Made by a program: the position numbers and the translations under genes. Of a stretch of 64,000 nt of DNA, positions 47,824-51,121 are shown in pieces (the first letter of the stretch is position 1; every line of letters starts with the position of its first letter). Origin of the DNA: Roseobacter cerasinus. Lineage in GTDB: Bacteria > Pseudomonadota > Alphaproteobacteria > Rhodobacterales > Rhodobacteraceae. Below the pieces are notes generated by a model. That model ran no database searches. It was not told the origin of the DNA and saw only the letters and a program-made list of their open reading frames with translations. The stretch spans positions 310,001 to 374,000 of the forward strand of contig NZ_BLIV01000001.1 in NCBI RefSeq assembly GCF_009811755.1, in the 5' to 3' direction.

Positions 47824-48897
47824 TCAGGCCATGCCGCCCTTGATCAAGCCTTCGGCGATGCGCCCATACGCCTGCGCCATCGGGCCGTCTCCCACGGCGA
47901 TGGGTGTGCCACCATCCCCGGCAAGGCGCGTCTCAAGATCAATCGGCAAAGCGCCCAGCAACGGCACCCCCAGCTTGTCAGCTTCGGCGGCCACGCCACC
48001 TTGCCCAAAGATCTGATGTTCCGACCCGCAATCCGGGCAGACAAACATCGACATATTCTCGATCAACCCCAGCACCGGCGTTTTCAGCGTGTCGAACATA
48101 TCGAGCGCCTTGCGCGCATCGATCAGCGCCACATCCTGCGGGGTGGAAACAACAATGGCCCCCGTGAGCTCGGATTTGGTACAAAGCGTCAACTGCACAT
48201 CCCCCGTGCCGGGCGGCAGGTCGACCAGCAAGACGTCAAGCTCGCCCCACTCCACCTGGCCCAGCATCTGTTGCAGCGCGCCCATCAGCATCGGCCCGCG
48301 CCAGACCACCGCCTTGCCCTCTTCCAGCATGAAGCCGATGGACATCAGCGTGACCCCATGGGCGTGCAACGGAATGATCGTCTTGCCGTCAGGCGAGGCC
48401 GGGCGCTTGTTCACGCCCATCATGCGCGGCTGAGAGGGACCATATATATCAGCGTCCAGCAGACCGACCTTGCGCCCCGCCCGCGCCAGAGCCACGGCGA
48501 GGTTTGATGAGACCGTGGATTTGCCCACCCCGCCCTTGCCGGACCCGATGGCGAGAATGCGTTTCACACCGGTCGGCTTGGTCGGCCCGGCCTGTGGTTT
48601 GGGGTGGCCGCCGATCTTCAGGCTTGGCGGCTCGGGCTTCTTTTCTGCCGGGCCATGCGCGGTCAGCGCGACGGACGCACTTTCCACGCCTGGCAAGTCA
48701 CGCACGATCTTTTCTGCGGCATCACGCAACGGCCCCATCTGGCGCGCGACCTCGGGGCTCGGCGCCTCGATGACAAAGCGCACGGAGGCCCCATCCACGA
48801 CAAGCGCTCGAATCAAATCATGCGCCAGCAGGCTTTTTCCATCGGGAAGGGCAACCCGGTCCAGCGCCGCCTCAACTTGGGCCTTCGTCACAGACAT
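47824..48897 (-). CDS. apbC: Mrp/ApbC iron-sulfur carrier ATPase
   Basis: This 357-residue P-loop protein carries [4Fe-4S] clusters to apo-enzymes. An N-terminal DUF59/MIP18-like domain (ALDRVALPDGKSLLAHDLIRALVVDG) is followed by a deviant Walker A, GSGKGGVGKSTVSSN, around residue 120, then LLDADIYGPSQPRMMGV, LLVDLPPGTGDVQLT, and the cluster-binding CPDC in MFVCPDCGSEHQIFG. The ATG at 48897 has GAGGAG 9 nt upstream. No partner genes adjoin it. Confidence 0.95.
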   Translation of the reverse strand: MSVTKAQVEAALDRVALPDGKSLLAHDLIRALVVDGASVRFVIEAPSPEVARQMGPLRDAAEKIVRDLPGVESASVALTAHGPAEKKPEPPSLKIGGHPKPQAGPTKPTGVKRILAIGSGKGGVGKSTVSSNLAVALARAGRKVGLLDADIYGPSQPRMMGVNKRPASPDGKTIIPLHAHGVTLMSIGFMLEEGKAVVWRGPMLMGALQQMLGQVEWGELDVLLVDLPPGTGDVQLTLCTKSELTGAIVVSTPQDVALIDARKALDMFDTLKTPVLGLIENMSMFVCPDCGSEHQIFGQGGVAAEADKLGVPLLGALPIDLETRLAGDGGTPIAVGDGPMAQAYGRIAEGLIKGGMA

Positions 48898-49050
48898 GCT
48901 CAAATTCTCCTCAAATGCGCCGCTTTGCTAAGCGCCTGTTTCCGCTAACAGTATTTAGGGTGTCGAACTGCCTAACCCTATAGCACTACGCATAAATTTA
49001 CGCTAGGACGCCCATGCATTCGCTGCATAGCAGCATTGTAAGAGCGTCTA

Positions 49051-49078
49051 TTGTGCACCCGCAGCATTTTCCTACATA
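49051..49078 (+). promoter_or_regulatory. Candidate stress-sigma promoter for the DUF1127-sRNA locus
   Basis: TTGTGC at 49051-49056, a 16-nt spacer and TACATA at 49073-49078 lie about 45 nt before the DUF1127 start. In Rhodobacter the equivalent locus is driven by RpoHI/RpoHII; assigning this box to RpoH is inference. Confidence 0.4.
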
Positions 49079-49122
49079 ACAGTCACAACGAACGCATACG
49101 AGTAAACACGAAGGCATCTGTC

Positions 49123-49359
49123 ATGGCCTATTACACACAGTCACATGTCGCTTCCAGCAGCCTGATCGAACGGGCACTGGCGACAACCGCCCAATTTCTC
49201 GACAAAGCCGCGCAGCGCTATGCCAAGCACCGCGTCTACCGGGAAACCTACAATGAACTGGCCGCACTCGGCGACCGCGATCTGAATGACCTTGGCCTGA
49301 GCCGGGCGATGATCCGCGGCCTTGCACTGGAGGCGGCAGAGAAATTCGCAGAGACCTAA
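49123..49359 (+). CDS. DUF1127 protein, CcaF1-like
   Basis: This 78-residue basic protein ends in the DUF1127 motif YNELAALGDRDLNDLGLSRAMIRGLALEAA, the L-DLGLSR pattern of the family. In Rhodobacter sphaeroides a DUF1127 protein of this type (CcaF1) is encoded directly upstream of the CcsR small RNAs, is co-transcribed with them and acts in RNA maturation. The same layout is visible here, with sRNA hairpins beginning 12 nt after the stop. The ATG at 49123 has AAGG 9 nt upstream. An in-frame upstream extension covers the promoter and is rejected. Confidence 0.9.
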   Translation: MAYYTQSHVASSSLIERALATTAQFLDKAAQRYAKHRVYRETYNELAALGDRDLNDLGLSRAMIRGLALEAAEKFAET

Positions 49360-49370
49360 CTCTGCGTCCC

Positions 49371-49450
49371 GAACAGGCGCTCCTTCCTCCTCCCTGGAAC
49401 GTCTGTACCTTGAGCGGCGGCATCTATCCTCCTCCCGGATGCCGTCGCCA
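49371..49450 (+). ncRNA. CcsR/cuckoo-type small RNA 1
   Basis: Two adjacent hairpins each expose CCTCCTCCC in the loop. The first (49374-49405) has CAGGCG paired with CGTCTG and the motif at 49386-49394. The second (49414-49448) has an 11-bp stem, GCGGCGGCATC with GATGCCGTCGC, and the motif at 49428-49436. The motifs are 42 nt apart. The exact ends are estimates. The loop sequence mimics the anti-Shine-Dalgarno of 16S rRNA. Confidence 0.85.
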
Positions 49451-49514
49451 GAATGCAAGCGCACCCCGCGTGCGCACCCGGTCCGGAGCACGCAGCTCCC
49501 CATCGGGGACACGA

Positions 49515-49598
49515 TATCAGACGCGCCTCTCCTCCTCCCTGGGGCGTCTGTGACCAGGCAGCGGCATTCATCCTCCTCCCGGATGTCGCTGTCCCTAA
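49515..49598 (+). ncRNA. CcsR/cuckoo-type small RNA 2
   Basis: Hairpin 49518-49550 pairs CAGACGC with GCGTCTG around CCTCCTCCC at 49531-49539. Hairpin 49557-49593 pairs CAGCGGCAT with ATGTCGCTG around CCTCCTCCC at 49572-49580. Motif spacing is 41 nt, almost the same as in small RNA 1. Ends are estimates; processing from a longer DUF1127 transcript is expected by analogy with Rhodobacter. Confidence 0.85.
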
Positions 49599-49626
49599 TC
49601 AAGACCAGCTTGGCTGGTTGTAACAC

Positions 49627-49708
49627 GTGGCCAGGGTCTTCCTCCTCCCTGACTTTGGCGACGGACTATGAAGGCGGTGCCCTCCTCCCGGGCGCCGCCT
49701 TTTCCTTT
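49627..49708 (+). ncRNA. CcsR/cuckoo-type small RNA 3, with terminator
   Basis: Hairpin 49630-49659 pairs GCCAGGGTC with GACTTTGGC (G-U pairs allowed) around CCTCCTCCC at 49641-49649. Hairpin 49671-49700 pairs GGCGGTGCCC with GGGCGCCGCC, with the motif at 49681-49689 partly in the stem, and is followed by TTTTCCTTT. That last hairpin is therefore also the Rho-independent terminator of the whole locus. Motif spacing is 40 nt. Confidence 0.85.
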
Positions 49709-49867
49709 GTATCGGACCAAATCGGCGCGCTTCGGCACAGCGTTAAGGGATTTTTTCAACCAGCGTGACACCCGCTGGGTTTCCGATATAATTCGAAAGG
49801 GTTAGGGGCACGGTTGCCTGGCTTGGTTGTGTTGCAAGACCAAGCCATCATGTGAAGAGTGGGTCAA

Positions 49868-51121
49868 ATGCCGGTTTTTCTGAGACTGACAAATGCCGAT
49901 ATCACTGACGCCAGCTTTTGGGCTGGCCTCGATATCAATCGCGACAGCACCATCGACGCGCGCAATATCTCTGACCGTTTTCAGATCACGCTGACCGGCA
50001 ATTCGATCACCTTCACAGACACCAACAGTGGCGCGGTCACGACATACACCGACGCAGACATCGGCTCCGGCTCCTTCAGCGAATTTGTGCAGTTTCGCGG
50101 CAACGACGCCGACAATGATGTCAGCGGATCCGTCGGGCTGAACGCATCCGGTTATCGGGGCGGCAGTGGCGATGATACCTTCACCGACGACGGCAACCTG
50201 GGCGGTACAATGCGTGGTGGGGCTGGCGATGACGTCTTGCAAGGTGGCAGCGGCAACAACAACATCAGCGGCGGCCAGGGCGATGATATCCTGCGCGGCG
50301 GCGGCGGCAACAATAACATCCTGCGTGGGGGCAGCGGCGACGATACGCTCTTTGCCGAGGATGGGGGTGGCAATCTCGAAGGCGGCAGCGGCGACGATGT
50401 GATCTTCGCTGGCCTCAACACCGGCTTTGTGCAGGGCGGCAGCGGCGATGACAGCCTGACTGTGCCGCAAGGCTCGGTGGTGAACCCGTTTTCCTCCACC
50501 GGCGGCAATGTCACGCTGCCGAATGGGCGCACCTTCACCTATCTCAACATCAACAGCGTCACCGTGGCCTGTTTCACCGCAGGCACGCCCTTGCGCACAC
50601 CCGGGGGCGATGTCCCGGTCGAGGCGCTGGCGGTGGGCGATCTGGTCGAGACGCTGGATCATGGCGCGCGCCCGATCCGCTGGATCGGGAAGCGCAGCGT
50701 CCCGGGGCGCGGCGAGCTGGCGCCGGTGACCTTCCTGCCGGGCAGCATCGGGAACCGGTCGCAGCTGCGGGTCTCGCCCCAGCACCGCGTTCTGCTGAAC
50801 GGCTGGCGGTGCGAGCTGATGTTTGAGGCCGAGGAGGTGCTATGCGCCGCGAAGCATCTCTGCGATGGTGATCAGATCTTCAGCGCGCCCTGTGACAGCG
50901 TCACCTATTATCACGTGATGTTCGACGCCCATGAGGTGGTCTTTGCCGATGGCGCGCGGCTCGAGAGCTTCTATGCAGGTGATCACATTCTGGAGGCCGA
51001 CCGAGAGACATATGACGAGATCAGGGCGCTCTTCCCTGAGTTGGATGGCATCACCCTGCCCCGCGCGGCCCGGCCCATCGTGAAAGGGTTCGAGGCGCGC
51101 ACGCTGCTGCCGCTTGACTGA
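49868..51121 (+). CDS. RTX-repeat protein with C-terminal Hint (hedgehog/intein) domain
   Basis: This 417-residue protein has an N-terminal beta-rich region, then a series of glycine-aspartate nonapeptide repeats (GGSGDDTFT, GGAGDDVLQ, GGQGDDILR, GGSGDDTLF, GGSGDDVIF, GGSGDDSLT), a calcium-binding beta-roll of the type exported by type I secretion. From about residue 233 a Hint_2 domain begins with ACFTAGTPLRTPGGDVPVEALAVGDLVETLDHG and continues with SPQHRVLL and AHEVVFADGARLESF. No secretion genes are adjacent. Substrate and role are unknown. The ATG at 49868 is preferred over a GTG three codons upstream. Confidence 0.88.
   Translation: MPVFLRLTNADITDASFWAGLDINRDSTIDARNISDRFQITLTGNSITFTDTNSGAVTTYTDADIGSGSFSEFVQFRGNDADNDVSGSVGLNASGYRGGSGDDTFTDDGNLGGTMRGGAGDDVLQGGSGNNNISGGQGDDILRGGGGNNNILRGGSGDDTLFAEDGGGNLEGGSGDDVIFAGLNTGFVQGGSGDDSLTVPQGSVVNPFSSTGGNVTLPNGRTFTYLNINSVTVACFTAGTPLRTPGGDVPVEALAVGDLVETLDHGARPIRWIGKRSVPGRGELAPVTFLPGSIGNRSQLRVSPQHRVLLNGWRCELMFEAEEVLCAAKHLCDGDQIFSAPCDSVTYYHVMFDAHEVVFADGARLESFYAGDHILEADRETYDEIRALFPELDGITLPRAARPIVKGFEARTLLPLD

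Follow-up and report, generated by a model that had tools for sequence, protein, structure and literature searches.

The locus described here is a CIN1-type locus in which a DUF1127 gene precedes cuckoo (CcsR) small RNAs (sRNAs), a further member of an already known kind. New here is a conserved LysR-type regulator (LTTR) box in its promoter, which is unexpected for a DUF1127-cuckoo operon and absent from the original prediction. The locus lies in a 64-kb stretch of the Roseobacter cerasinus genome, hereafter the window. Computation establishes the DUF1127 gene, the hairpins, the terminator, the covariation of the stems, the conservation of the box, and a gene for an LsrB-like LTTR. As a whole, the locus is very probably a CIN1-type stress operon with anti–Shine-Dalgarno (anti-SD) cuckoo RNAs, its promoter being probably under an LsrB/VtlR-type LTTR. 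As a relative of CcsR/cuckoo operons, the locus itself comes as no surprise; less expected are the box and, with it, a cysteine-less LsrB-like regulator.

The DUF1127 gene (49123..49359, + strand) encodes a small CcaF1-like protein of 78 amino acids, and its PF06568 match at 49123–49356 (49 bits; cut-off 23.3) bears out the DUF1127 gene predicted 5′ of the array. Upstream, on the − strand, lies a divergent gene for an mrp/apbC-type P-loop NTPase (47824..48903; PF10609). The DUF1127 stop codon ends at 49359, and the first loop motif begins at 49386. A small hairpin (49347..49366, + strand) spans the stop codon; this inverted repeat was scored as a − strand terminator-like site and is covered by the 5′ portion of an ar14 match. 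Downstream of the array, positions 49859–51121 encode an RTX-repeat and Hint_2 protein (PF00353, PF13403), and 8 of the 19 genus loci have a relative of it downstream of their array. A sigma-70–like promoter matching at 11/12 (GTGACA-16-TATAAT) is located at 49765–49792, between the terminator and the RTX/Hint gene.

Six exact copies of CCTCCTCCC start at 49386, 49428, 49531, 49572, 49641, and 49681, all on the + strand, and no copy was found in the rest of the 64-kb window outside 49386–49689. Dinucleotide shuffles of the window contained 0.75 copies on average and 5 at most, six being reached in 0 of 100. Count and shuffles thus bear out the six identical 9-mers, paired at 42, 41, and 40 nt, that had been reported. 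Across the whole genome, there are 33 exact 9-mers, 27 of them outside the array, and the reversed control also gave 33. Since the 9-mer is therefore not rare genome-wide, the signal is the paired spacing: the paired pattern occurs in this genome as three pairs on the + strand, compared to 0 in the control.

Each pair corresponds to a two-hairpin unit on the + strand. Hairpins A and B are located at 49373..49406 and 49412..49449 in unit 1 (motifs at 49386–49394 and 49428–49436), at 49518..49550 and 49557..49593 in unit 2 (49531–49539 and 49572–49580), and at 49626..49663 and 49670..49702 in unit 3 (49641–49649 and 49681–49689). The folding energies of the six range from −13.2 to −26.0 kcal/mol (z from −2.8 to −6.0). 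Two motif-free spacer hairpins lie between units 1 and 2 (49459..49507, + strand; −28.7 kcal/mol, z −2.5), and a weak one between units 2 and 3 (49603..49619, + strand) folds no better than shuffles (z −0.4). The full 9-mer is unpaired in five of the six hairpins. In the terminal one, the first two C of the 9-mer are paired and seven nucleotides are looped, so that the claim of a 9-mer in the loop of each separate stem holds for five hairpins and is slightly overstated for the last (7/9 nt exposed). Several hairpins with an exposed CCUCCUCCC loop, as expected of a CIN1/cuckoo locus, are thus present, again with 7/9 nt exposed in the last.

Hairpin B of unit 3 is an intrinsic terminator with 13 pairs and the tail TCCTTTGTAT after TTT; its detection by a terminator scan confirms the predicted last stem with a T-run. 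Within 48900–49860, it is the sole + strand terminator-like site, the scan of both strands giving 3 sites compared to 1.0 in shuffles. Units 1 and 2 share a 22-nt repeat at 91% and a 31-nt repeat at 87%, and unit 3 is diverged. The stems had been said to differ in sequence but pair; this agrees with the divergence of unit 3 and with the covariation described below, but not with the likeness of units 1 and 2.

An Rfam search of the window at gathering thresholds returned tRNA only. In a permissive local search, the three pairs matched CcsR1 (RF02791) with 43.5, 38.9, and 23.8 bits (gathering score, 65.3; E from 3.9e-9 to 2.6e-3) and ar14 (RF02344) with 46.8, 40.8, and 34.1 bits (gathering score, 58.8; E from 3e-7 to 2e-4). 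The expectation that covariance models would match every unit is thus borne out for both families, though only below gathering scores, and for this reason, the locus is not filed as a curated RF02791 member. The same hairpins also weakly match Scr3202 (Streptomyces; E 0.31), Ms_IGR-4 (Mycobacterium; E 2), and ar7. As for a second cuckoo locus in the same genome, the best other RF02791 match had an E value of 0.057, and 12 of 14 control genomes also matched (E ≤ 10); this candidate was rejected.

The paired pattern was found in 19 of 19 genus genomes and in 68 of 100 family genomes (one per genus), the R. cerasinus genome being counted in both sets. The reversed control was found in 15 of the 100 family genomes, with never more than 3 matches; genome G050 contains 15 matches of the paired pattern. 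We compared a single locus per genus genome (19 in all) and 30 family loci, taken from 30 of the 68 genomes; two of the latter (L042 and L051), with fewer than two hairpins, were left out, leaving 28. With DUF1127 called by an HMM built from clear matches within the same locus set, 18 of the 19 genus loci and 24 of the 28 family loci sampled have a DUF1127 gene directly upstream of an array of paired CCUCCUCCC hairpins. This layout is typical for Rhodobacteraceae. The mrp gene is divergent upstream of the array in 19/19 genus and 22/28 family loci. Hairpins were counted as motifs with at most one mismatch that passed a fold filter: 10 genus loci have 6, 4 have 5, 4 have 4, and 1 has 3 (n = 19), and sampled family loci have 2 to 14. 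The contrast drawn earlier between three units here and four in Rhodobacter sphaeroides is therefore correct as a count but not distinctive, given 3 to 6 hairpins in the genus and 2 to 14 in the family. In locus L154 (G006:C38, 1636–2244), a DUF1127 gene is followed by 15 exact-motif hairpins.

Without the fold filter, 81 of 82 exact motifs in genus arrays and 178 of 178 in family arrays lie within a hairpin that folds at −10 kcal/mol or better and exposes ≥6 motif bases. Covariation was assessed in 31 distinct genus units, with unit 2 of the window as the reference structure. Double changes were observed in 19 of 22 pairs, and 90.3% of pairing cells could pair, compared to 77.8% in shuffled and 36 to 54% in slid alignments. 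Hairpin A pairs less well (80%) than hairpin B (97%). Since these units were selected for exact motifs, the invariance of their loops carries no weight on its own; loops with a single mismatch do exist. The stems are conserved by pairing rather than by sequence, as in CIN1/cuckoo loci, and the conservation of stems and loops in related genomes, whose absence was to count against the original prediction, is present. Together with the CcsR1 and ar14 matches at the three pairs and the recurrence of DUF1127 with the array, the covariation shows that the earlier parallel to ccaF1-CcsR1-4 was right.

The promoter region contains a distal LTTR-type box, TGCA-N6-GCAT (TGCATTCGCTGCAT; 49015..49028, + strand), which fits the T-N11-A form and was recognized as a block in the genus alignment. 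Overlapping it is a VtlR-like 15-mer, TGCATAGCAGCATTG (49024..49038, + strand), that differs at 2 positions from the VtlR motif published for Brucella, read as its reverse complement (PMC12595884, excerpt). Further downstream, 49051..49067 (+ strand) contains TTGTGCA and a second TGCA-N6-GCAT, TTGTGC being a putative −35 element, and 16 nt after it, conserved alignment columns suggest a putative −10 element, TACATA (49073..49078, + strand). A sigma-70 scan gave no match at this proposed core promoter; the genus alignment has a conserved TTG and an AT-rich −10. The T-N11-A box upstream of the core promoter is the arrangement expected of a VtlR/LsrB promoter. In the NfeR1 promoter, the LsrB site is a TGCA-N6-GCAT fitting T-N11-A at about −72 to −57 (PMC10746234, excerpt), and the box in the window lies at a similar distance from the start suggested by the putative −10.

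In the alignment of the mrp-DUF1127 intergenic region, a block, YATGC....CTGCATRGCAGMAWTG and then ATTGTGCA...GCAGCA, is present in all 19 genus loci. Of the 19 loci, 18 have TGCA-N6-GCAT in the distal position, and all have TTGTGCA before the array; in the 18 with both, TTGTGCA lies 36 to 37 nt further downstream than the distal box. A VtlR motif with ≤3 mismatches was found upstream of the array in 17/19 genus loci, 24/28 family loci, and all 13 named loci, which were chosen by a CcsR1-like pattern and two of which (L143 and L149) share one assembly. Block shuffles reached 3 mismatches in 0.1 to 0.3% of trials, and the reversed motif was never under 4. Every other locus shows 4 or 5 mismatches. 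Of the four family loci in this class, three (L040, L049, and L050) are lone CCTCCTCCC hairpin pairs with neither DUF1127 nor a good box, which may be stand-alone cuckoo-type RNAs or chance occurrences. A genome-wide scan for the 15-mer TGCATRGCAGCATTG gave a single exact site, in the array promoter, and 32 sites at two mismatches but none at one; the reversed control gave three. In the titles and abstract openings searched, there was no mention of such a promoter box in Rhodobacterales; the founding papers might describe it.

The genome's three further DUF1127 genes lack the 15-mer (best, 5 mismatches). One of these paralogues (L099, G000:C6) has a looser TGCA-N6-GCAT, TGCATCCGGCGCAT, 119 nt before its start. 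Its counterpart L133 (G114:C2) has TGCAAAAAACGCAT in matching context, and both share a stretch after the box. A second DUF1127 target of the same LTTR is thus possible. The LysR gene on the opposite strand beside another paralogue, L102 (G000:C1:246421-247381), was rejected as the regulator: it does not resemble LsrB (43.5 bits), and its locus contained no box.

The genome has 32 genes with a LysR substrate domain (E ≤ 1e-10), 30 of which were compared, along with the LysR of L102. The closest to Agrobacterium LsrB is G000:C7:74622-75521 (L162:1459-2358, − strand), with 41% identity and 236 bits; the next has 30% and 134 bits. Its helix-turn-helix is identical to that of Agrobacterium LsrB at 49 of 65 positions, compared to 31 of 61 for the next in the genome. 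Its best match in the PDB, with 239.5 bits (next, 106.6), is 9HH1, which is LsrB (PMC11975290, excerpt). At E ≤ 1e-60, 96 of the 100 family genomes encode an LsrB-like LTTR; some of them lack the paired pattern, so that mere presence does not link the LTTR to the array. The LsrB cysteines C144, C236, C244, and C273 are replaced by V, V, V, and A in six of six distinct genes (seven rows, one gene twice); the redox-sensor cysteines of LsrB are thus missing. By eye, the surrounding 3.6 kb contains no trxB, and a purL-like gene adjoins. Inspected in the same way, the main trxB locus (L136/L152) has no LysR among frames of ≥130 amino acids, its neighbors being Lrp-like and P450-like. A search for ar15 (AbcR) in 142 class genomes gave no matches, and since controls gave none either, it is uninformative. 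Judging by the box and its published counterparts, the promoter is probably bound by an LsrB/VtlR-type LTTR at 49015–49038. Whether, throughout Rhodobacteraceae, the DUF1127-cuckoo operon is a main target of an LsrB/VtlR-type LTTR without a cysteine redox switch is, in our estimate, an even bet.

Co-transcription, processing, anti-SD silencing, and regulator binding are modeled here on relatives. One promoter would give a transcript with the CcaF1-like DUF1127 frame and, in its 3′ part, three CcsR/cuckoo RNAs, ending at the unit 3 terminator. The three RNAs, each of ~80 to 90 nt, would be cut out by RNase E with the participation of the DUF1127 protein. The two unpaired CCUCCUCCC loops of each RNA, which we take to resemble the 3′ tail of 16S rRNA, would pair with GGAGG-type Shine-Dalgarno sequences and block the translation of several mRNAs, and an LsrB/VtlR-type LysR regulator would probably act from 49015–49038, upstream of the core promoter. 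The silencing and maturation steps follow the published behavior of CcsR1-4, the Sinorhizobium hairpins, and NfeR1. In R. sphaeroides, ccaF1 is co-transcribed with CcsR1-4, and CcaF1 binds RNA and joins RNase E in maturation; short DUF1127 genes with CcsR-like sRNAs are termed CIN1 loci, of cuckoo RNAs (PMC10253847, excerpt). Increased CcaF1 is reported to interfere with CcsR maturation (PMC8307010, excerpt), so the processing role of CcaF1 is not simply positive. The literature has yet to settle whether DUF1127 binds chiefly RNA or proteins (PMC12501420, excerpt). The Sinorhizobium CCUCCUCCC hairpins are described as anti-SD motifs (PMC3927594, excerpt), and NfeR1, with three such hairpins, silences ntrB by base pairing, an effect lost on mutating the three loops (PMC10746234, excerpt). 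By analogy, the RNAs of the window probably act by anti-SD pairing.

We scanned the genome for targets among the 27 loop complements outside the array, 24 of which have loci. A start codon 2 to 12 nt downstream with a frame of ≥40 codons was found for 8 of the 24, compared to 22.8% for random positions, which is not a clear enrichment. ATG 3 to 8 nt downstream with ≥100 codons was found for 4 of the 24, compared to 2.5%; the limits were chosen after the start-codon result, and the signal is discounted because it is expected of any SD-like 9-mer. The four candidate targets are genes for a carboxymuconolactone decarboxylase-like protein, a DUF3306 protein, a response regulator, and DctQ.

The absence of clear enrichment at starts would suit RNAs that act as general titrators, their loops competing with the 16S anti-SD tail or sequestering SD-like RNA to tune translation globally. 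The likeness of the loop to that tail and the up to 14 to 15 hairpins in some relatives point the same way. We consider such a role improbable nevertheless, since NfeR1 silences defined mRNAs through its loops and loses this action in the loop mutant (PMC10746234, excerpt) and CcsRs target flhR mRNA (PMC8307010, excerpt). That the last hairpin is a terminator would also fit a mere structured 3′ untranslated region that stabilizes or terminates the DUF1127 mRNA. The recurrence of the same loop while the stems covary, and the retention of the array by two relatives without a DUF1127 gene, make this very hard to believe.

As to the promoter, the ccaF1-CcsR operon of R. sphaeroides is described as driven by RpoHI/RpoHII (PMC10253847, excerpt), and TTG at −35, a feature of RpoHI/RpoHII promoters (PMC10673084, excerpt), is part of the conserved TTGTGCA. 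Control could then be by RpoHI/RpoHII alone, and since mrp is divergent upstream in most loci (the 19/19 and 22/28 given above), the upstream block could be a site serving mrp, if not an unrelated one. Against this, the block is a T-N11-A palindrome at fixed spacing that fits an independently published VtlR motif, and it tracks the array: L052, L056, L058, and L068, with no upstream mrp by tblastn, have ≤2 mismatches, whereas L049, which is linked to mrp but has two hairpins and lacks DUF1127, matches the motif with 4 mismatches at best. We therefore regard sole control by RpoH as rather unlikely. Binding by an LsrB/VtlR-type LTTR is preferred, and LTTR and RpoH inputs could coexist.

The two relatives without an adjacent DUF1127 gene are L084 (same genus; L084/L153, G114) and L057 (another genus; G040). 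In both, the box and TTGTGCA are retained, along with six or four hairpins. The array can thus persist with no DUF1127 gene beside it: the protein is dispensable in cis, though perhaps not in trans, G114 having two DUF1127 genes elsewhere that score above cut-off. These natural variants separate the sRNAs from the protein and bear on the need for a CcaF1-type protein in sRNA maturation.

The box and the LsrB-like LTTR provide a concrete candidate regulator for a widespread sRNA operon and suggest one LTTR-sRNA-DUF1127 circuit across two alphaproteobacterial orders. If the LTTR does act here, the regulator-sRNA-DUF1127 circuit of Rhizobiales would extend to Rhodobacterales, and an operon described as RpoH-driven would gain an LTTR input. 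It would also contradict the view that LsrB appears unique to Rhizobiales, which was drawn from a tree with three LsrB proteins and nine OxyR proteins, R. sphaeroides being one of the species (PMC11975290, 2025, excerpt).

Among known systems, the locus resembles ccaF1-CcsR1-4 of Rhodobacter (Cereibacter) sphaeroides (RF02791) in its DUF1127 gene, tandem two-hairpin CCUCCUCCC RNAs, and end terminator. A VtlR-like site is also found upstream in Cereibacter johrii (L143) and C. changlensis (L146), the 15-mer having 2 mismatches in the Cereibacter loci; R. sphaeroides itself lies outside the loci read. The window differs from ccaF1-CcsR1-4 in having three units instead of four, Rfam scores below gathering, and another core promoter sequence. 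With ar14/NfeR1 of Sinorhizobium (RF02344), it shares successive CCUCCUCCC-loop hairpins and TGCA-N6-GCAT upstream of the core promoter (PMC10746234, excerpt), but NfeR1 is described as one three-hairpin RNA, whereas three pairs follow a DUF1127 gene here. The likeness to the VtlR/LsrB regulon of Rhizobiales, in which VtlR of Brucella activates AbcR2 and three DUF1127 genes, consists of an LTTR box beside a DUF1127 gene and sRNAs, an LsrB-like LTTR encoded in the genome, and a second DUF1127 gene with TGCA-N6-GCAT upstream. Unlike Rhizobiales lsrB, which is in an operon with trxB (PMC11975290, excerpt), the putative regulator found here has no trxB nearby, and all four LsrB cysteines are replaced in it.
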